DNA of 64,000 bases from Pseudomonas sp. Q2-TVG4-2 (lineage in GTDB: Bacteria > Pseudomonadota > Gammaproteobacteria > Pseudomonadales > Pseudomonadaceae): positions 1 to 64,000 of the forward strand of contig NZ_LGLW01000007.1 of the NCBI RefSeq assembly GCF_013620795.1, written 5' to 3'. Of the stretch, positions 17,430 to 27,953 are shown in pieces. The notes beneath the pieces were generated by a model, which was given only the letters and a program-made list of their open reading frames with translations, did no database searches and had not been told where the DNA came from. A program made the translations under genes and the position numbers. Numbering within the stretch: the stretch's first letter is position 1; every line of letters begins with the position of its first letter.

Positions 17430-17649
17430 CCCCTCGGTTCGATGCCCAGGTCGAGGCAAGTGGTCCTGTGATGAAGCTCGTTTGCCGATAAGTATTGGTT
17501 ATCGCGCGATCAGCAGCTGTCACTAGGCAGCGTTAGCGGTGCTTCTTAGAGTGGCCGGCATTCCAGAATAATAAAAAGCGAGGAAAGACGATGAGGCTTG
17601 GCCTGATCGCAAATCCCGAGCGTGGCGCTCAGACGCCCGGCATTTTCTA

Positions 17650-17660
17650 TTCATATGATC
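17650..17660. promoter_or_regulatory. TTCATATGATC palindrome, candidate GntR operator 1
   Basis: It shares TCATATGAT with the site at 17862-17871, 211 bp away, and lies in the gap upstream of the regulator gene. Confidence 0.35.
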
Positions 17661-17851
17661 AGAAGGCTAGCTTGCTGGGCCGCTCGACGGTTGGCGGAAC
17701 CAGCTGTCTCCGTTCGGTACGGCTAGGTTCCGTTGCTGTGATCGCCCCCGAAAGCCGTCTTCGCTTCTTCAATATGTCGCCATGGCGTGGCGCCGGCCGC
17801 TTACCCGCTCAATCGTTCGGGCGATTTCGATGTGAGAGTTGCCAGTCAGAT

Positions 17852-17880
17852 TTGACAGCCAATCATATGATGATAGGGTT
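17852..17880 (+). promoter_or_regulatory. candidate promoter and operator of the galactose cluster
   Basis: A perfect TTGACA (17852-17857) is followed by the perfect palindrome ATCATATGAT (17862-17871). No good -10 box is seen at 17 bp; TAGGGT (17874-17879) is the nearest. The palindrome would sit between the two promoter boxes, a fitting place for a GntR-type repressor encoded 35 bp downstream. Confidence 0.45.
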
Positions 17881-17914
17881 CAATGGAACCAAGGGCAGCC
17901 GCACAGGGGCTCGC

Positions 17915-18640
17915 ATGTCGAACAACTATCACAGCGCAACGGTGGAATGGCTGGGCTCCTGGATCGCCTCGGGCAAGGTTCAGCCAGGCGAGGCGCTGAA
18001 GGTCGAAGCGGGGCTCTGCGAAGAGCTCGGTGTCAGCCGCACGGTGATCCGCGAGGCGATCAAGACGCTGGTGGCCAAGGGCATGCTCGATGTCGGGCCG
18101 AAGGTCGGCACCCGCGTGACCCCGGTGCGCTCCTGGAACCTGTTCGATGTACAGGTGGTGGGGTGGCTGGCCGAGAACGGGCTGCCGGAAAGCTTCGTGA
18201 TGGACCTGCTCGATCTGCGCCGGACCATCGAGCCGACCGCCGTGCGCTGGGCGTGCGAGCGCGCAACACCGAAGCAGATTGCCGAAATCCAGGCGGCCTA
18301 CCAGATGCTGGCCGCATCCCTCGGCGACAAGGATGAATACAACCGCGCCGACAAGCTGTTCCACGAGGCGGTGCTTGCCGCCAGCCACAACCAGTTCATC
18401 GAGCGCATGGTGCCCGCGCTGGGCGCCTTGCTGGCGGTGTCCTTCGAAGTGTCATCGACGGTTCCTGACGAGCTCGGCCTGACCCTGCCGCTGCACAAGG
18501 ACATCGCCGACGCCATCGCCAGCCGCGACGTCGCGCGCGGCGTCTGGGCCTGCATGACGCTGATCGAGCGCGCCGCCCTGACCATTTCACGCCATTACCC
18601 CGAACTGGTCGTATTACGCGGCGAGCAGACCGCGCCATAA
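17915..18640 (+). CDS. GntR family (FadR subfamily) transcriptional regulator
   Basis: The 241-residue protein starts MSNNYHSATVEWLG behind AGGGGCTCGC. Residues 8-70 form a winged helix-turn-helix with the recognition segment CEELGVSRTVIREAIKTLVAKG and wing GPKVGTRVTP. Residues 90-230 are an all-helical FCD ligand domain with the metal-site residues in LLDLRRTIEPTAVRWA, FHEAV and HKDI. By position as first gene of the cluster and by similarity to DgoR-like regulators it probably represses the cluster until a galactonate-type inducer appears; the ligand is inferred. The frame stays open upstream to 17591, but that extension is not protein-like. Confidence 0.88.
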   Translation: MSNNYHSATVEWLGSWIASGKVQPGEALKVEAGLCEELGVSRTVIREAIKTLVAKGMLDVGPKVGTRVTPVRSWNLFDVQVVGWLAENGLPESFVMDLLDLRRTIEPTAVRWACERATPKQIAEIQAAYQMLAASLGDKDEYNRADKLFHEAVLAASHNQFIERMVPALGALLAVSFEVSSTVPDELGLTLPLHKDIADAIASRDVARGVWACMTLIERAALTISRHYPELVVLRGEQTAP

Positions 18641-18664: not shown

Positions 18665-19543
18665 ATGCAATGGCTGCCCATCTCGCAACAACGCTACAGG
18701 CTGGCCGAGGGCCCTTTCTGGGACGCTCGGGAGCAGACGCTCTACTGGGCCGATATCGTCGGGCGGCTGGCCTGCCGGCTGGGCCCGGACGGCTACCGGC
18801 AATGGCAGCTGGCCGAGCCGGTATCGGCGTTCATTCCCTGCCTGCGTGGCGACGCGCTGGTGACCCTGGCCAGCGGCGTCTATCGCCTCGATCCTAACGC
18901 TGCTGACGCTGCACCTGCGCTCGAACGTTTCTGCGTTGCCGACGCCACGCCCGGCAACCGCGCCAACGAGGCGCGCTGCGACGGCCAGGGGCGGCTCTGG
19001 CTCGGCACCATGCAAAACAACATTGCCGGCGATGGCGGCGACCTGCCGATCACTCGGCGTTCCGGCGGGCTGTTCCGGGTCGACCCGGATGGCTCGGTCA
19101 CGCAGCTGCTCAGCGACCTCGGCATCGTCAACACCTTGCTGTGGAACGAGGCGGGCGATCGGCTCATCTGTGGCGACACGCTGGACGAGACGCTTTACAT
19201 CCACCGCATCGACGACGACGGGCAGCTGATCGGTCGAGACACCTGGGCCGGCCCGCATCCGCGTGGCGTGCCCGACGGCTCGGCGATGGATGTCGAGGGC
19301 TGCGTCTGGAATGCGCGCTGGGGTGGCCACTGCCTGCTGCGTTTCGCGCCGGATGGCTGCTTGGATCGCATCGTTGAACTGCCCGTCAGTCATCCCACCA
19401 GCTGCGTGTTCGGCGGACCCAACCTGACTCATCTGTATGTCACCTCGGCCAGGTCGGACGAGGCGTCGACCGAGCTGGACGGCGCCGTGCTGGTGGCCGA
19501 CGTCGGCATCGCCGGCACGCCTTGTACAGGCTTTGCCGGTTGA
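18665..19543 (+). CDS. SMP-30/gluconolactonase family sugar lactonase
   Basis: The 292-residue product is a six-bladed beta-propeller lactonase of the SMP-30/Cgr1 family. It starts after GGAGTGCGACC. Metal-site residues are expected in LAEGPFWD (Glu17), NRANEARCDGQGRLWLGTM (near 100-117), GIVNTLLWN and DGSAMDVEG (near 205). It would hydrolyse the sugar 1,5-lactone made by the dehydrogenase encoded next. In the context of dgoK and dgoD the natural substrate is probably D-galactonolactone, although L-arabinonolactone is a close alternative. Confidence 0.87.
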   Translation: MQWLPISQQRYRLAEGPFWDAREQTLYWADIVGRLACRLGPDGYRQWQLAEPVSAFIPCLRGDALVTLASGVYRLDPNAADAAPALERFCVADATPGNRANEARCDGQGRLWLGTMQNNIAGDGGDLPITRRSGGLFRVDPDGSVTQLLSDLGIVNTLLWNEAGDRLICGDTLDETLYIHRIDDDGQLIGRDTWAGPHPRGVPDGSAMDVEGCVWNARWGGHCLLRFAPDGCLDRIVELPVSHPTSCVFGGPNLTHLYVTSARSDEASTELDGAVLVADVGIAGTPCTGFAG

Positions 19544-19597: not shown

Positions 19598-20416
19598 ATG
19601 GCCGCACCGCTCACCTTGCCATCGACACCCGAACCCCCGCGCGGCGAACGCCTGAAAGGCAAGGTCGTGGTCGTCACCGGCGGTGCCCAGGGCATCGGCG
19701 AAGCCATCGTTGCCTGCTTTCAGGCGCAACAGGCCAAGGTCGTCATTGGCGACATCCAGGGCGAGAAGACCGAGCGGGTCGCCGCCGGCTGGCGCGAGCG
19801 TGGCGGCGAGGTGCGAGCTCTGAAGACCGACGTCACCCAGCCGGCCGAGCTGGAAGCGCTGGTCGGACTGGCCCTCGAGCACTACGGCCAGGTCGACGTG
19901 CTGGTCAACTGCGCCGGCGTCAACGTGTTCCGCGACCCGCTGGAAATGACCGAGGAGGACTGGCGGCGCTGCTTCGCCATCGACCTGGATGGCGTCTGGT
20001 TTGGTTGCAAGGCGGCCCTGCCACACATGGTGCAACGCGGGGTCGGCAACATCATCAACATCGCTTCGGTGCATTCGACCAACATCATCCCCGGCTGCTT
20101 CCCCTATCCGGTCGCCAAGCACGGGCTGCTCGGCCTGACCCGCGCGCTCGGCATCGAATATGCCCCCAAGGGAATTCGCGTCAACGCCATCGCGCCGGGC
20201 TACATCGAGACGCAGCTAAACGTCGATTACTGGAACGATTTTTCCGACCCGCAGGCCGAGCGCCAGCGCGCCTTCGACATGCATCCGCCGCGTCGCATCG
20301 GCCAGCCGATCGAAGTGGCGATGACCGCGCTGTTTCTCGCCACCGACGAAGCGCCTTTCATCAATGCCGCTTGTATCACCATCGATGGCGGGCGTTCGGT
20401 GCTCTACCACGATTAA
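19598..20416 (+). CDS. SDR family sugar dehydrogenase (probable galactose 1-dehydrogenase)
   Basis: The 272-residue short-chain dehydrogenase has the cofactor loop TGGAQGIGEA (residues 28-37) and NCAGVN near 105. The catalytic Ser lies in NIASVHST near 152 and the Tyr-Lys pair in YPVAKHGLLG near 169-173; here the motif is Y-P-V-A-K. The C-terminal ITIDGGRSVLYHD is typical. The start follows AGAGGAGTTGTTCAC. Gene context suggests oxidation of an aldose at C1, the entry step of the oxidative galactose route, but the family is too broad for the substrate to be read from sequence. Confidence 0.85.
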   Translation: MAAPLTLPSTPEPPRGERLKGKVVVVTGGAQGIGEAIVACFQAQQAKVVIGDIQGEKTERVAAGWRERGGEVRALKTDVTQPAELEALVGLALEHYGQVDVLVNCAGVNVFRDPLEMTEEDWRRCFAIDLDGVWFGCKAALPHMVQRGVGNIINIASVHSTNIIPGCFPYPVAKHGLLGLTRALGIEYAPKGIRVNAIAPGYIETQLNVDYWNDFSDPQAERQRAFDMHPPRRIGQPIEVAMTALFLATDEAPFINAACITIDGGRSVLYHD

Positions 20417-20447
20417 CGGCGCGATCAGTTCAGGCATTCGATTCAAA

Positions 20448-20465
20448 AGGGCCGCCAGCGGCCCT
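20448..20465. repeat. hairpin between the SDR gene and the binding-protein gene
   Basis: AGGGCCG/CGGCCCT stem with a 4-base loop, without T-run. It lies upstream of the gene for the periplasmic binding protein, where such hairpins often protect or process mRNA so that the binding protein is made in excess. Confidence 0.4.
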
Positions 20466-20558
20466 GCGGAAAGCCGCCAGCAAGCATTCGGTGGGGCGTG
20501 TGAGGGTGATGAGCACCCGGCTAATCAGAGCTATTCAATAAGAACAATGGAGGTAGCT

Positions 20559-21563
20559 ATGTTTCGTTCTTTCGGTATCCGTTCGCTTTGCTGTGCGGCG
20601 TTAACGGTCGGTGCGATGAGTTTCGCCGCTGCGACCCTGGCCCAAGAAGAAGTCAAGATCGGTTTTCTGGTCAAGCAACCCGAAGAGCCCTGGTTCCAGA
20701 CCGAATGGGCGTTCGCGGAGAAGGCTGCCAAAGAGCACGGCTTTACCCTGCTGAAGATCGCCGTACCGGACGGCGAGAAGACCCTCGCCGCCATCGACAG
20801 CCTGGCGGCCAATGGCGCCAAGGGCTTCGTCATCTGCCCACCTGACGTGGCGCTCGGCCCGGCCATCGTCGCCAAGTCCAAGTTCAATGACCTCAAGGTC
20901 ATGGCGGTCGATGATCGTTTCGTCGACGCCAAGGGCGAGTTCATGGAAGACGTGCCCTATCTCGGCATGGCCGCCTTCGAGGTCGGTCAGAAGCAGGGCG
21001 CAGCCATGGCCGAGGAAGCCAAGAAGCGCGGCTGGGACTGGAACGATACCTACGCGGTGATCAACACCTATAACGAGCTGGACACCGGCAAGAAGCGCAC
21101 GGACGGCTCGGTGGATGCGCTGAAGAAGGCCGGCTTTCCTGAAGACCACATTCTCTATACCCCGCAGAAAACCCTCGACGTGCCGGGCAGCATGAACGCC
21201 ACCACCTCGGCACTAGTGAAGCTGCCGCGCGGCGCGAAGAACCTGATCATCGGCGGCATGAACGACAACACGGTGCTGGGTGGTGTGCGCGCCACCGAGA
21301 GCGCCGGCTTCAGCGCCGAGAACGTGATCGGTATCGGCATCAATGGCACCGATGCCATCGGCGAGCTGAAGAAGGACAACAGTGGCTTCTACGGCTCGAT
21401 GCTGCCCAGCCCGCATATCGAGGGCTACGAGACGGCGCGGATGATGTACGAGTGGGTCACCGAGGGCAAAGAGCCGCCCAAGTACACCGCGATGGACGAA
21501 GTCACCCTGATCACCCGCGAGAACTTTCAGGAAGAACTGGAAAAGATCGGCCTCTGGAAATAA
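20559..21563 (+). CDS. araF: sugar ABC transporter periplasmic binding protein, AraF type
   Basis: The start at 20559 follows GGAGG by 5 bases; the longer open frame is discarded. The 334-residue product has a signal peptide ending ATLAQ near residue 28. The mature protein closely resembles E. coli AraF: VKIGFLVKQPEEPWFQTEW at its start, then PDGEKTLAAIDSLAANGAKGFVIC, NELDTGKKRT, IIGGMNDNTVLGGVRATE and a C-terminus LITRENFQEELEKIGL. AraF binds L-arabinose and D-galactose with similar fold contacts. The cluster context favours galactose as the physiological substrate, or both sugars. Confidence 0.93.
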   Translation: MFRSFGIRSLCCAALTVGAMSFAAATLAQEEVKIGFLVKQPEEPWFQTEWAFAEKAAKEHGFTLLKIAVPDGEKTLAAIDSLAANGAKGFVICPPDVALGPAIVAKSKFNDLKVMAVDDRFVDAKGEFMEDVPYLGMAAFEVGQKQGAAMAEEAKKRGWDWNDTYAVINTYNELDTGKKRTDGSVDALKKAGFPEDHILYTPQKTLDVPGSMNATTSALVKLPRGAKNLIIGGMNDNTVLGGVRATESAGFSAENVIGIGINGTDAIGELKKDNSGFYGSMLPSPHIEGYETARMMYEWVTEGKEPPKYTAMDEVTLITRENFQEELEKIGLWK

Positions 21564-21648: not shown

Positions 21649-23163
21649 ATGTTCCAACAAGTCAAAGCGGGCGACAGCCTGCAGTTCAACGGCATCGGCA
21701 AGAATTTCCCGGGCGTGCGCGCGCTGTCGGACATCAGCTTCGTCGCGCGACCCGGTACCGTGCATGCGCTGATGGGCGAGAACGGCGCCGGCAAGTCGAC
21801 ACTGTTGAAGATCCTTGGTGGCGCTTACCAGCCCAGCAGCGGTGAGCTGCAGATCGGCGAGCGCAGCCTGACGTTCCGCTCGGCCGGGGAAAGCATTGCC
21901 AGCGGCGTCGCGGTGATCCATCAGGAGCTGCACCTGGTGCCGGAGATGAGCGTGGCCGAGAACCTGATGCTCGGGCACATGCCGTCGCGCTTCGGGCTGG
22001 TCAATCGGCGCGCCATGCATCGTCAGGCCTGTGAACTGCTCAAGGGCCTGGCGGACGAAATCGAACCGGCGGCACGCCTGGGCAGCCTGTCGCTGGGGCA
22101 GCGCCAACTGGTGGAGATCGCCAAGGCCATGTCGCGCAATGCCCACGTGATCGCCTTCGATGAACCCACCAGCAGCCTGTCGGCGCGCGAGATCGAGCGG
22201 CTGATGACCATCATCGCCAGGTTGCGAGACGAAGGGCGCGTGGTGCTTTACGTCTCGCACCGGATGGAAGAGATCTTCCGTATCTGCGACGCGGTCACGG
22301 TGTTCAAGGACGGTCGCTTCGTTTGCACGTTCGACGACATGAGCGAACTGACACACGACCAGCTGGTGACCTGCATGGTCGGTCGGGATATCGACGATAT
22401 CTACAACTATCGCCCCCGCGAGCAGCAGGGTGAGGCCCTGCGCGTCGAGGGCCTGCTCGGTCACGGCTTGCAGGAGCTGGTGAGTTTCTCGGTCAGCCGT
22501 GGCGAGGTGCTCGGCTTTTTCGGCCTGGTCGGTGCTGGGCGTACCGAGCTGCTGCGCCTGCTTGCCGGGCTTGCTCCGCACAAAGCCGGTACGGTGAAGC
22601 TCGATGGGCAACCACTGAAACTTAAGTCGGCGCGCGATGCCATCGCCGCAGGCATTCTGCTGTGTCCCGAAGACCGCAAGAAAGAAGGCATCGTGCCGCT
22701 GGGCAGCGTGGCGGAGAACATCAACATCGGCGCGCGCAGCCGCAACGCGCGCCTGGGTTGCCTGGTGCAGGGCCGCTGGGAGCGTGAGAACGCCGACCGA
22801 CAGATTCGCGCGTTGAACATCAAGACGCCATCGCCGGATCAGCAGATCGTCTACCTCTCCGGCGGCAACCAGCAGAAGGTGATCCTCGGTCGCTGGCTGT
22901 CGATGCCGATGAAGGTGCTGTTGCTCGACGAGCCCACCCGCGGCATCGACATCGGCGCCAAGGCCGAGATCTACCAGATCATCCATGACCTCGCGGCGAG
23001 CGGTATCGCGGTGATCGTCGTGTCCAGCGACCTGATGGAGGTCATCGGTATCTCCGACCGTATTTTGGTAATGAGCGAGGGGGCGATCACTGGCGAGCTC
23101 CCTCGAGAGCAGGCCGATGAGTCCCGCCTGCTGCAACTGGCACTCCCGCGTTCGCGCGGCTGA
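21649..23163 (+). CDS. araG: sugar ABC transporter ATPase, AraG type
   Basis: The 504-residue protein contains two ABC domains, as in all sugar importers of the Ara/Mgl/Rbs class. Domain one has Walker A GENGAGKST near residue 43, signature LSLGQRQ near 146 and Walker B VIAFDEPTSS near 168. Domain two has a degenerate P-loop, GLVGAGRTELLRL, near 291, signature LSGGNQQK near 404 and LLLDEPTRGID near 426. It powers import through AraH. The start lies behind GGAGACGCTCC, 85 bp after araF. Confidence 0.94.
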   Translation: MFQQVKAGDSLQFNGIGKNFPGVRALSDISFVARPGTVHALMGENGAGKSTLLKILGGAYQPSSGELQIGERSLTFRSAGESIASGVAVIHQELHLVPEMSVAENLMLGHMPSRFGLVNRRAMHRQACELLKGLADEIEPAARLGSLSLGQRQLVEIAKAMSRNAHVIAFDEPTSSLSAREIERLMTIIARLRDEGRVVLYVSHRMEEIFRICDAVTVFKDGRFVCTFDDMSELTHDQLVTCMVGRDIDDIYNYRPREQQGEALRVEGLLGHGLQELVSFSVSRGEVLGFFGLVGAGRTELLRLLAGLAPHKAGTVKLDGQPLKLKSARDAIAAGILLCPEDRKKEGIVPLGSVAENINIGARSRNARLGCLVQGRWERENADRQIRALNIKTPSPDQQIVYLSGGNQQKVILGRWLSMPMKVLLLDEPTRGIDIGAKAEIYQIIHDLAASGIAVIVVSSDLMEVIGISDRILVMSEGAITGELPREQADESRLLQLALPRSRG

Positions 23164-23184: not shown

Positions 23185-24153
23185 ATGTCTGCTCAACAGA
23201 ACGCTCTGTCCGCGCCGCGGCAGGGCCTCAATATGCGCCGTTTCCTTGATGACTGGGTCATGGTATTGGCCGCACTCGGCATCTTCGTGCTGTCGGCGAT
23301 CTTCATCGAAAACTTCCTCTCGCCGTTGAACATGCGCGGGCTCGGGTTGGCGATCTCGACCGTCGGCATTGCCGCCTGCACCATGCTGTTCTGCCTGGCA
23401 TCCGGGCACTTCGACCTGTCGGTCGGGTCGGTGATTGCCTGCGCCGGTGTGGTGGCGGCAGTGGTGATGCGCGATACCGAAAGCGTCTTCCTCGGCGTCT
23501 CGGCGGCGTTGGCGATGGGCCTGGTGGTCGGGCTGGTCAATGGCATCGTGATCGCCAAGCTGCGTATCAATGCGCTGATCGCGACGCTGGCGACCATGCA
23601 GATCGTTCGCGGGCTGGCCTACATCTTTTCCAATGGCAAAGCGGTGGGGGTGATGCAGGAAGAGTTCTTCCTGTTCGGCAACGGCAGCCTGTTCGGTGTG
23701 CCGGTGCCTATCCTGATCACCCTTGTGTGCTTCGCCTTCTTCGGCTGGCTGCTCAACTACACCACCTACGGCCGCAACACCATGGCCATCGGCGGCAACC
23801 AGGAAGCGGCGCTGCTGGCAGGGGTCCATGTCGATCGCACCAAGATCATCATCTTCGCCGTGCATGGCCTGATCGGTGCGCTGGCCGGTGTGGTGCTGGC
23901 GTCGCGGATGACGTCCGGGCAGCCGATGATCGGCCAGGGATTCGAGCTGACGGTGATCTCCGCCTGCGTACTGGGTGGCGTGTCGCTCAGCGGTGGCATC
24001 GGCATGATTCGCCACGTGATCGCGGGGGTGTTGATTCTCGCGATCATCGAGAACGCGATGAACCTGAAAAACATCGACACCTTCTATCAGTACGTCATCC
24101 GCGGCACGATCCTGCTGATCGCGGTGATCATCGATCGGCTGAAGCAGCGCTGA
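23185..24153 (+). CDS. araH: sugar ABC transporter permease, AraH type
   Basis: The start at 23185 follows GAGGTGCTTT; a Met five codons earlier lacks a site. The 322-residue protein has about ten hydrophobic helices and the BPD_transp_2 coupling loop around GRNTMAIGGNQEAALLAGV (residues 192-212), close to E. coli AraH. With AraF and AraG it forms the complete importer. It is 21 bp from araG and 37 bp from the kinase gene that follows, consistent with one operon. Confidence 0.94.
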   Translation: MSAQQNALSAPRQGLNMRRFLDDWVMVLAALGIFVLSAIFIENFLSPLNMRGLGLAISTVGIAACTMLFCLASGHFDLSVGSVIACAGVVAAVVMRDTESVFLGVSAALAMGLVVGLVNGIVIAKLRINALIATLATMQIVRGLAYIFSNGKAVGVMQEEFFLFGNGSLFGVPVPILITLVCFAFFGWLLNYTTYGRNTMAIGGNQEAALLAGVHVDRTKIIIFAVHGLIGALAGVVLASRMTSGQPMIGQGFELTVISACVLGGVSLSGGIGMIRHVIAGVLILAIIENAMNLKNIDTFYQYVIRGTILLIAVIIDRLKQR

Positions 24154-24190: not shown

Positions 24191-25171
24191 GTGAATACAC
24201 GCCTGATAGCGCTGGACTGGGGCACCAGTTCATTGCGCGCTTATCGGCTCGGTGCGGCCGGCGAAACGCTGGAAGAACGCAGCCTGCCGTTGGGCATCAT
24301 GCAGCTCGATGGCAGCGAGGCCGACTTCGAACGCGCGCTGGAACAAGCCTGTGGCGACTGGCAGCGGTCGAATCCGGCGGTGCCGATGATTGCCTGCGGC
24401 ATGATCGGCAGCGCGCAGGGCTGGCGCCAAGTCAGCTACGTCGAGGCGCCGCTTGGCGCCGACGGGTTGGGTACGGCGCTGCTACCGATTCACCGCTCCC
24501 AAGGTATGCCGCTGTGGCTGGTGCCGGGTGTGATACAGCGCGGTGCTCTACCCAACGTTATGCGCGGCGAGGAAACTCAGGTGTTCGGCTTGTTCGACGG
24601 CGACGCCGATCACGCCGGGCCGTTGCTGATCGGCCTGCCCGGCAGCCATAGCAAGTGGGTGATGGTTGAAGATGGCCAGCTCAGCCAGTTCCAGACGTTC
24701 ATGACCGGCGAGGTCTATCAGGCGCTGCTCGGCCACACGATTCTCGGTCGCACGGCGGTGATCGGTGACGCCTTTAACGCTGCGGCTTTCGAGCGGGGCC
24801 TGCGGGTGGCCACATCAAACGAAGGGCAAGGTGGCCCATTGTCGACCATCTTCAGCAGCCGCACCCTGGTGCTGACCGGCGAACTTAGCGGCTCGGCTCA
24901 GGCCGATTACCTGTCCGGGCTGCTCATCGGCCATGAACTGGCTGCCATGACGTCCGGGCTGCAGCTGTCGTCGTCCCAGCCCATCGTCCTTATCGGCAAT
25001 TCGACCCTGTGTGCCCGTTACTTGTGGGCGCTGGAGCATTGCGGCTTCGAGTCTCTGCGCTTCGCGCCCGAGGCGACGGCCGCCGGGCTCTGGAAGATCG
25101 CCACGGGGGCCGGCCTGGTCGCCGCCGAGACAGCAGGAGATCCGTACGTTCGACACCACACTGGCCATTAA
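24191..25171 (+). CDS. dgoK: 2-dehydro-3-deoxygalactonokinase
   Basis: DgoK phosphorylates 2-keto-3-deoxygalactonate. The gene starts with GTG behind GGAGAACCC; the 326-residue product begins [20 protein letters not shown], the phosphate-binding loop of the family. [10 protein letters not shown] near 125, [12 protein letters not shown] near 149 and [16 protein letters not shown] near 173 are further DgoK landmarks. The last residues after [12 protein letters not shown] form an unusual tail, [15 protein letters not shown], because the stop codon now lies inside what seems to be a dgoA remnant. Confidence 0.93.
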
Positions 25172-25202
25172 CGGGCTGATTGCAACCTTCGAGAGACTGC
25201 CG
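25135..25202 (+). pseudogene. dgoA: remnant of the 5' end of dgoA (KDPGal aldolase)
   Basis: AGGAG at 25135-25139 is followed at 6-bp spacing by ACG (25146) where a start codon would be expected. The next codons read [14 protein letters not shown]. The stretch LAxNGLIA resembles the N-terminus of 2-dehydro-3-deoxy-6-phosphogalactonate aldolases (the usual continuation is ILRG), and dgoA commonly lies exactly here, between dgoK and dgoD. After GLIA the resemblance stops and FERLP leads directly into the dgoD start. I infer a deletion of nearly all of dgoA plus start-codon loss. The short match length is the main reason for caution. Confidence 0.6.
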
Positions 25203-26351
25203 ATGAAAATAACTCGCCTTACTACGCTGGTTGTGCCGCCACGCTGGCTGTTCCTGAAGATCGAAACCGACGAAGGCGTCACCGGCTGGGGCGAGCCTGT
25301 GGTCGAGGGCCGCGCGCACAGCGTTGCCGCCGCAGTGGACGAGCTGTCCGACTACCTTGTTGGCCGCGATCCACGCAACGTCGAAGACCTCTGGACCGTG
25401 ATGTACCGGGGCGGCTTCTACCGCGGCGGAGCGATCCACATGAGTGCCATCGCTGGCATCGACCAGGCGCTGTGGGACATAAAGGGCAAGGCGCTCGGCG
25501 TCTCGGTCAGTGAGCTGCTCGGCGGCAGGGTGCGCGAACGCATTCGTGTGTATTCCTGGATCGGCGGTGATCGCCCGGCCGACACCGCCAATGCTGCGCG
25601 AGACGCCGTGGCGCGAGGTTTCAGCGCGGTAAAGATGAACGCCAGCGAGGAAATGCAATTCGTCGACAGTCACGCCAAGGTCGATGCGGTGCTGGCGAAC
25701 ATGGCCGCTGTGCGCGACGCGGTGGGGGGGGGAATCGGCATCGGCGTCGATTTCCATGGCCGCGTGCATAAACCCATGGCCAAGATCCTGATCAAGGAAC
25801 TCGAGCCGTATCGGCCAATGTTCATCGAGGAGCCCGTGCTGAGCGAGAATTACGAGGCGCTTAGAGAACTGGCGCCGCTGTCCTGTGCGCCGATCGCGTT
25901 GGGGGAGCGGCTTTACTCACGCTGGGACTTCAAGCGCATCCTTGCCGAAGGTTACGTCGACATCATCCAACCGGATGTTTCCCATGCCGGCGGCATTACC
26001 GAGACGCGTAAGATCGCCAGCATGGCCGAGGCTTACGATGTCGCGCTGGCATTGCATTGCCCGCTTGGGCCGATCGCCTTGGCTGCGTGCCTGCAGCTCG
26101 ACGGCGTCTGTTACAACGCTTTCATTCAAGAGCAGAGCCTGGGTATCCATTATAACCAGGGCAATGACCTACTCGATTACATCAGCAACCCCGAGGTGTT
26201 CGCGTATCAGGATGGTTTCGTTGCCATTCCGAACGGGCCGGGGCTGGGTATCGAGATCAACGAGGCCTACGTGCTGGAGCAGGCGCGCATCGGCCATCGC
26301 TGGCGTAACCCGATCTGGCGCCACGCGGATGGCAGCGTGGCCGAGTGGTAG
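25203..26351 (+). CDS. dgoD: D-galactonate dehydratase
   Basis: DgoD is an enolase-superfamily enzyme that dehydrates D-galactonate to 2-keto-3-deoxygalactonate. The 382-residue length equals E. coli DgoD. The N-terminal capping domain begins [25 protein letters not shown]. The barrel shows metal ligands in [13 protein letters not shown] (Asp near 183), FIEEPV (Glu near 209) and the [15 protein letters not shown] segment (Glu near 235). A basic His lies in [15 protein letters not shown]. The short spacing from dgoK, with a GAGAGA site, suggests transcriptional coupling. The frame is open back through the dgoA remnant. Confidence 0.95.
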
Positions 26352-26623: not shown

Positions 26624-27772
26624 TCAGGGCTTGGGAAATTTGTAGATCGTGGTCTGGGTATAGGTTTCGCCCGGGTCTAGGCGTGTGCTCGGGAAATCCG
26701 GCTGATTCGGCGAGTCCGGGTAATGCTGCGTTTCCAAGGTGAAGGCGCTCCAGTGCGGGTACGCCTTGCCGCCTTTGCCCGTGATGCTTCCGTCGAGGAA
26801 GTTGCCCGTATAGAGCTGCACGCCGGGCTCTGTCGTGTACATCAACAGCCGCCGCCCGGACTCGGGGTCAAGCACTTCGGTCGCCAGCTTGCTCACGTCT
26901 CCGTCGGTGTCCAGCACCCAGTTGAAATCGAAGCCGCCGGCCTTGGCCTCGGCGAATTTCAGCTGCTGATGGTCACCCTTTATGTGCTCACCGAAGCGAG
27001 TCGGTTGTAAGAAATCCATCGGCGTGCCCTTGACCTCGACCAGTTCGCCGGTGGGAATCAGCTTCTCGGTCACTGGTGTGTAGCGCGAGGCGTGCAGCGT
27101 CGCGACCTGGTCGAGCACGCTCGGACTGCCGGCCCCGGCGAGGTTGAAGTAGCTGTGGTTGGTCAGGTTGAGTACGGTGGGTTTGTCGGTGGTGGCGCGG
27201 TACTGGATGCGCAGCTCGTTATCTTCGTTGAGGCTATAGGTCACGTGGGTGGTCATGGTGCCGGGGAACCCCATCTCGCCATCGGGCGACACGTAGCTCA
27301 GCTCGACGCCGACCCATCCGTCCTCGTCTGCGGGCTTGGCCTTCCAGACTCGCTTGTCGAAGCCCTTGGGTCCGCCATGCAGGGCGTTGCTGCCATCGTT
27401 CTGTGGAATCTGGTAGGTCGTGCCGTCGAGTTCGAAGCGGCCATCGGCGATGCGATTGCCGAAGCGACCTATGGTGGCGCCGAAATAGACGTTGCCGTTC
27501 TCGATATAGCCGTCGATTTCATCGAAACCGAGCACGATGTCTTCGAGCTTGCCGTTTTTATCCGGAACCATGAGCGACTGCAGCACGCCACCGTAGGTGA
27601 TCACCACCGCCTCAATCCCCTGGCTGTTTTTCAATGTGTACTTTTCGATGGGCGTGCCGTCCGGCATCTTGCCGAAGCTTCCGTGCTGGTTAGACAGGCC
27701 AGCGGCCTGGGCGCCAAATGTGCTGATCATGAGAGACAGGGCAATTCCGTTGAGTAGCAATCTAGGTTGCAT
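26624..27772 (-). CDS. galM: aldose 1-epimerase (mutarotase) with signal peptide
   Basis: Mutarotase interconverts the alpha and beta anomers of free galactose or glucose. The start at 27772 follows AGGTGAAGCC. The 382-residue product has a signal peptide (about residues 1-24, cleavage near AQA), so it should act in the periplasm on incoming sugar. Landmarks are GATIGRFGNRIADG near 100, NDGSNALHGGPKGFDKR near 125, the catalytic His in NLTNHSYFNLAG near 200 and the C-terminal ETQHYPDSPNQPDFPS, which carries the catalytic Glu region. It converges on dgoD and is probably transcribed separately. Confidence 0.93.
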   Translation of the reverse strand: MQPRLLLNGIALSLMISTFGAQAAGLSNQHGSFGKMPDGTPIEKYTLKNSQGIEAVVITYGGVLQSLMVPDKNGKLEDIVLGFDEIDGYIENGNVYFGATIGRFGNRIADGRFELDGTTYQIPQNDGSNALHGGPKGFDKRVWKAKPADEDGWVGVELSYVSPDGEMGFPGTMTTHVTYSLNEDNELRIQYRATTDKPTVLNLTNHSYFNLAGAGSPSVLDQVATLHASRYTPVTEKLIPTGELVEVKGTPMDFLQPTRFGEHIKGDHQQLKFAEAKAGGFDFNWVLDTDGDVSKLATEVLDPESGRRLLMYTTEPGVQLYTGNFLDGSITGKGGKAYPHWSAFTLETQHYPDSPNQPDFPSTRLDPGETYTQTTIYKFPKP

Positions 27773-27953
27773 GGCTTCACCTGACATTGTTGTTGTTTTC
27801 TGCGTGGGTGCACGGCGCCAAGGTCGATTGAAGGCCTGGCGGCGTTGCGCCGGCTAAAGCCTAGACAGCCGAGCCATTCCGTCCCAATACGAATTGCGGT
27901 CTCTGCGATACGCGAATCGGTATGTCTTCCGGGCGCAAAAAAACGCGGAAGGT

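Follow-up and report, generated by a model that had tools for sequence, protein, structure and literature searches.

The window (the whole stretch of 64,000 nucleotides that was analyzed) belongs to a draft genome, G000, of 4.47 Mb in 39 contigs, with an estimated completeness of 100 percent. It carries on the forward strand an operon of the De Ley-Doudoroff galactose/galactonate type, which comprises a GntR regulator, a lactonase, a dehydrogenase, an AraGH-type importer, DgoK, DgoA, and DgoD. The genes follow in this order: a GntR/FadR-type regulator (17915..18640), an SMP-30-type sugar lactonase (18665..19543; PF08450, 226 bits), an SDR sugar dehydrogenase (19598..20416; NF005469, 433.8 bits, cut-off 306), the sugar-binding protein of an ABC importer (20424..21563, a provisional start, with the listed ORF beginning at 20364; PF00532, 176 bits), the araG-type ATPase (21649..23163; NF008442, 807 bits, cut-off 689) and araH-type permease (23185..24153, listed ORF start 23170; NF008441, 507.7 bits, cut-off 378) of this importer, dgoK for 2-keto-3-deoxygalactonate kinase (24191..25171; Pfam PF05035, 306 bits, cut-off 25), and dgoD for galactonate dehydratase (25203..26351; NCBIfam NF010624, 699.9 bits, cut-off 311). 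A galM-type aldose epimerase gene lies on the opposite strand (26624..27787; NF008277, 319.6 bits, cut-off 240); its score is below the cut-off of the stricter model TIGR02636 (329.1 vs. 397.65).

The longest ORF of the regulator (17591-18640) probably starts too early; a palindrome (17861..17874, forward strand) lies inside it, and the ATG at 17915 is the likely true start. This conserved palindrome, AATCATATGATGAT, is a probable GntR operator and was present in 10/10 aligned operons; the upstream alignment covered 10 of the 12 operons described below, with G002 and G014 outside it because the anchor did not capture them.

In Pseudomonas (P. fluorescens SBW25) and E. coli, according to PMC6927180, dgoKAD operons encode the enzymes for dehydration (DgoD), phosphorylation (DgoK), and aldol cleavage (DgoA) in galactonate metabolism. 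The window has the same genes around a gap: dgoD is present and dgoK adjoins it, whereas dgoA is missing between them, with only a 57-base remnant in its place and an aldolase gene elsewhere. The operon is thus a variant of the known dgoKAD operon, an ordinary gene loss with a neat footprint. No account of a natural dgoA loss was found among the open-licence papers listed, as judged by titles and abstract openings.

A preliminary description of this DNA had proposed that dgoA was deleted and had left a stub. Its reading of the junction was confirmed in the sequence: AGGAG (25135..25139), the former ribosome-binding site of dgoA, is followed by ACG instead of ATG (25146-25148), and the frame from this ACG leads straight into the dgoD ATG at 25203, which is in frame with it. 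The first residues do resemble the start of the intact DgoA of nine relatives (e.g., G055), and the first 39 bases of the remnant are identical to the dgoA gene of each of these relatives at 27-32 positions. The stub is real, but its size had been given wrongly as 12 codons; it has 19 codons, or 57 bases (25146..25202). About 13 codons appear to be the 5' end of the former dgoA gene, and the remainder its 3' flank. The latter (25190..25202) contains GAGAG among the final bases before dgoD, likely the dgoD ribosome site, and similar bases precede dgoD in the relatives.

The dgoK stop codon TAA (25169-25171), which had been missed, lies inside the remnant in a different frame. The end of dgoK and the start of dgoA overlap in 9/11 operons with dgoK, the window included, and in G002 and G014 the dgoK stop comes directly after the dgoA start. 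That the remnant is largely made of sequence used by its neighbours can explain why it was retained. Upstream of its ATG, the dgoD frame continues without a stop across the remnant and the dgoK end to a GTG at 25011 (25011-26351), and automatic gene calling could thus make DgoD too long.

A DNA search across 56 same-genus genomes, that of the window among them, yielded matches in 36, and in 12 of these the match came from this operon with dgoD (G000, G042, G036, G038, G048, G046, G002, G055, G012, G049, G014, and G052). The remaining 24 had only short, weak pieces; G001, the one examined, encodes at that place only distant DgoD relatives, with identities of 28 and 36 percent. In G014 a contig end truncates dgoD, and in G012 the gene is split. 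Nine of the 12 operons have an intact dgoA between dgoK and dgoD. G042 has the same short dgoK-dgoD junction as the window, and G052 lacks both dgoK and dgoA, with the end of araH 157 bases before dgoD; inspection of this gap by eye found no dgoA remnant.

Outside the genus, one named genome per species was scanned, and the best 80 loci of at least 596 stretches had DgoD proteins 75-85 percent identical. Among these 80, dgoA was found directly before dgoD in 54, all of which also had dgoK, and a dgoK-dgoD junction without dgoA was found in none. The other 26 (L124, L125, L127-L129, L131, and others) lacked both dgoK and dgoA within the stretch retrieved; 23 of them are from Burkholderia, Paraburkholderia, or Rhizobium. 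The proposed deletion is therefore supported by synteny (9/12 operons in the genus and, among the best 80 outside loci, 54/54 with dgoK before dgoD) and by a repeat that explains it.

Slippage or recombination between short direct repeats gives rise to deletions. The 12-bp sequence CGGGCTGATCGC occurs twice in the dgoA of G002 and G014, once near the start (base 27) and once at the stop codon. A repeat of this length was reached in 2/500 and 0/500 shuffles of the end pieces, respectively. Joining these genes at the repeat removes 590 bp and leaves AACGGGCTGATCGCAACC, followed after one or two bases by TCGAGAGA and then dgoD; the window's AACGGGCTGATTGCAACCTTCGAGAGA is arranged in this way. The junction of the window holds one remaining copy, CGGGCTGATTGC (25172..25183, forward strand). 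The 12-bp repeat is at both ends of dgoA in only 2/9 intact relatives, both of a more distant clade. In the seven other intact relatives the best repeat has only 5-7 bp and is located at other places, and six of these seven branch closer to the window's genome in the species tree than G002 and G014 do (the tree does not include G012), which speaks against this origin. The ancestor would therefore have had an end of the G002/G014 type.

These data indicate that dgoA was probably lost by deletion at the 12-bp direct repeat. Recombination or replication slippage between the copies at the ends of dgoA would have removed about 590 bp in an ancestor; the footprint is seen in the relatives, and the event itself we infer from it. 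The product would have retained the dgoK end, dgoD, and the likely dgoD ribosome site, so that the neighbours stayed expressible, and the orphan start codon would later have drifted from ATG to ACG in the window's genome. One repeat copy at the junction and loss of the intervening region are as in known deletions of this kind; we noted no difference, and dgoA is an ordinary example of them.

In a draft assembly of 39 contigs, dgoA could have been collapsed between the repeats by the assembler. We give this hardly any credence, given that the junction recurs in a second genome, G042, where it carries substitutions of its own, and that in the window the start of the remnant is mutated and the repeat is substituted, so it is no exact copy. 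The G042 remnant retains the ATG start, encodes 19 residues, and has a stop overlapping the dgoD start; it is identical to that of the window in 35 of the first 39 bases.

The relationship of the two genomes was analyzed with a species tree of rpoB, gyrB, and parE from 14 genomes, in which the gyrB columns of G046 were masked and G012 was omitted on account of split frames in several of its genes. Split matches in G012 were observed in dgoD, mutL, rpoB, parE, and tctC (L040, L171, L172, L187, L188, L218, and L222) and are probably sequencing indels. In the tree, G000 grouped with G048, G049, and G055 (100/100) and G042 with G024 and G041 (76/98). G000 and G042 as sisters were rejected with these three genes (AU 0.005) and with mutL (AU 0.001). 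One deletion inherited vertically from an ancestor of G000 and G042 alone was rejected with the housekeeping and mutL trees.

The rejection would be explained if a single deletion had moved between these non-sister species by local recombination. We regard this and two separate deletions as evenly matched. Both genomes share the same junction and a G014-like 3' flank, GCAACCTT, that was not seen in any of the seven intact relatives lacking the 12-bp repeat. Of the ten dgoK dS values of G000, the one to G042 is the smallest (0.577; the mutL dS of this pair is 1.30), and identity in a 250-base segment at the junction is 0.89, compared with 0.74-0.86 for nine others. However, two deletions at one repeat would yield the same junction. 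The dgoK tree places G000 and G042 together without support (37/0), and the dgoD tree places them apart, although their forced grouping was not rejected (AU 0.13). For dgoD, moreover, the dS of G042 to G000 is no closer than that of G036 (0.750 and 0.747).

The preliminary description had suggested that either a second dgoA or a lenient Eda takes over the missing step, and a search of the genome found a candidate for each. Both are PF01081 aldolase genes, and neither is in the dgo operon. The first, dgoA2, is unlinked to the operon and lies on contig C23 between phoBR and ubiA, in a cluster that encodes an IclR regulator, dgoK2, dgoA2, tctC, tctB, tctA, an SDR protein, and an HbpS-like protein; this cluster (L045 8497-15164) has no dehydratase gene.

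With NF006600, the model of KDPGal aldolase (cut-off 207), the score of DgoA2 was 300.8 bits, compared with 286.4 bits for DgoA1 of G036 and 87.7 for Eda. Its best PDB match was the E. coli KDPGal aldolase 2v81, with 199 residues matched. Lys128 of DgoA2 aligns with Lys126 of that enzyme, which we take to be the Schiff-base lysine; the aligned pairs further include Ile14 and I12, Glu39 and E37, and Val156 and V154. According to PMC4915726, E37 is the proton-shuttling Glu, and the sites of stereo-specificity are I12 and V154 in KDPGal aldolase and V20 and T161 in KDPG aldolase. Ile14 and Val156 of DgoA2 are thus of the KDPGal type. By model score and residues, the gene product is predicted to be an intact KDPGal aldolase, which could cleave KDPGal into pyruvate and glyceraldehyde 3-phosphate. 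It shares with E. coli DgoA (PDB 2v81/2v82) the aligned Lys, Glu, and both stereo-specificity residues; in contrast to the E. coli gene, dgoA2 has no dgoD beside it but dgoK2 and genes of a tripartite tricarboxylate-type transporter.

A tree with the 54 outside DgoA proteins from the best 80 loci separated DgoA1 from DgoA2, and the base of DgoA2 did not resolve. Among those loci, the protein nearest by path to the DgoA2 of the window's genome was the DgoA of P. oryzihabitans (L148), whose gene sits between dgoK and dgoD. The genome also has four DHDPS-family aldolases.

The other PF01081 gene, eda, adjoins pgl and zwf, and its product scored 307.5 bits with NF004325 (cut-off 241). This KDPG aldolase, which belongs to the Entner-Doudoroff pathway, might in principle have taken over the cleavage of KDPGal. 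In E. coli, Eda and its homologue DgoA have opposite stereo-preferences, and changes at two sites could blur them in a model reaction (PMC4915726). However, the Eda of this genome has the KDPG-type strand LPVIT and a Thr at the V154/T161 site, its score of 87.7 bits is below the KDPGal cut-off, and all seven operon-bearing genomes without dgoA2 retain dgoA1 despite an Eda-type gene. Because Eda is of the KDPG type at both stereo-specificity sites, the lenient Eda fits poorly, and the second dgoA fits the sequence evidence. We consider replacement by Eda very unlikely and set it aside on its residues and its low KDPGal model score.

At an identity of 68 percent or more, dgoA2 was present in 7 of the 56 genomes (G000, G024, G041, G042, G012, G052, and G002), and the cluster was found around all seven. 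In G042 (L221 7735-9261) dgoK2, dgoA2, and the SDR gene are kept, the latter two separated by about 130 bases, and tctCBA was not found in this cluster. Among the operon-bearing genomes, dgoA2 was present in 3/3 without dgoA vs. 2/9 with dgoA (one-sided Fisher p 0.045, a value that ignores kinship and stands on at most three losses, two of them possibly of one origin). G024 and G041 have the dgoA2 cluster and no such dgoD, which implies that the cluster has another task as well. Its substrate is perhaps an acid that the SDR protein converts to 2-keto-3-deoxygalactonate.

We therefore weighed whether the pathway is kept or decaying. The preliminary description had allowed that it stops at KDPGal or decays. 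If it were decaying, dgoA would be gone, KDPGal would accumulate or galactose would go unused, and dgoK and dgoD would follow. The mutation of the remnant start to ACG and the additional loss of dgoK in G052 are in line with decay. On the other hand, G000 and G042 have open frames for both dgoK and dgoD, dgoD is kept in G052, the importer genes are kept in all three, and an intact second aldolase gene is present. The dN/dS values between G000 and G042 (0.14 for dgoK and 0.03 for dgoD) are within the range of the other pairs; across all pairs they were 0.08-0.27 for dgoK (11 genomes) and 0.02-0.11 for dgoD (10 genomes, without G012 and G014). Both genes are under purifying selection. These values and the second aldolase gene argue against decay, which we consider improbable.

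The reading that we favor with good confidence is a repeat-mediated deletion of dgoA, tolerated through the unlinked DgoA2. The loss may have been tolerated because DgoA2 is predicted to cleave KDPGal, and the pathway probably works via this second aldolase gene. For this, dgoA2 would have to be expressed together with the dgo operon on galactose, which is the most tentative step of the explanation. The dgoKA2 cluster has a different conserved upstream element (7/7). A scan of L045, the 20 kb around dgoKA2, did not detect the GntR-type site (one match with three mismatches, 0.55 expected), and a motif scan of the window gave no match to the dgoKA2 element; scans of the window and L045 thus found no operator common to the two.

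The operons form a series with dgoK and dgoA (nine genomes), without dgoA (two), and without both (one). A tentative reading, to which we give a little less than even weight, is a stepwise split between two regulons: lower galactose catabolism would be handed to the differently regulated dgoKA2 cluster, which first served another substrate, with KDGal or KDPGal linking the regulons via IclR. These genomes offer a natural, testable series of a pathway moving from one regulon to another. They also illustrate that a gene can be lost from within an operon while the genes on either side stay intact, as the repeat positions spare the dgoK end and the likely dgoD ribosome site. An unlinked isoenzyme appears to cover the loss, and a pathway should not be called dead from a single operon.

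Two further loci were observed. In G052, genes for an IlvD/Edd-family dehydratase and an aldehyde dehydrogenase (L043 6316-8052 and 16970-18562; Pfam) flank the operon, which suggests a common oxidation of L-arabinose and D-galactose. On contig C12 (57835-62965; L226 and L233), a gene whose product is 34 percent identical to DgoD over 272 residues lies about 3.4 kb from a DHDPS-family gene, and this pair is perhaps another sugar-acid cluster.
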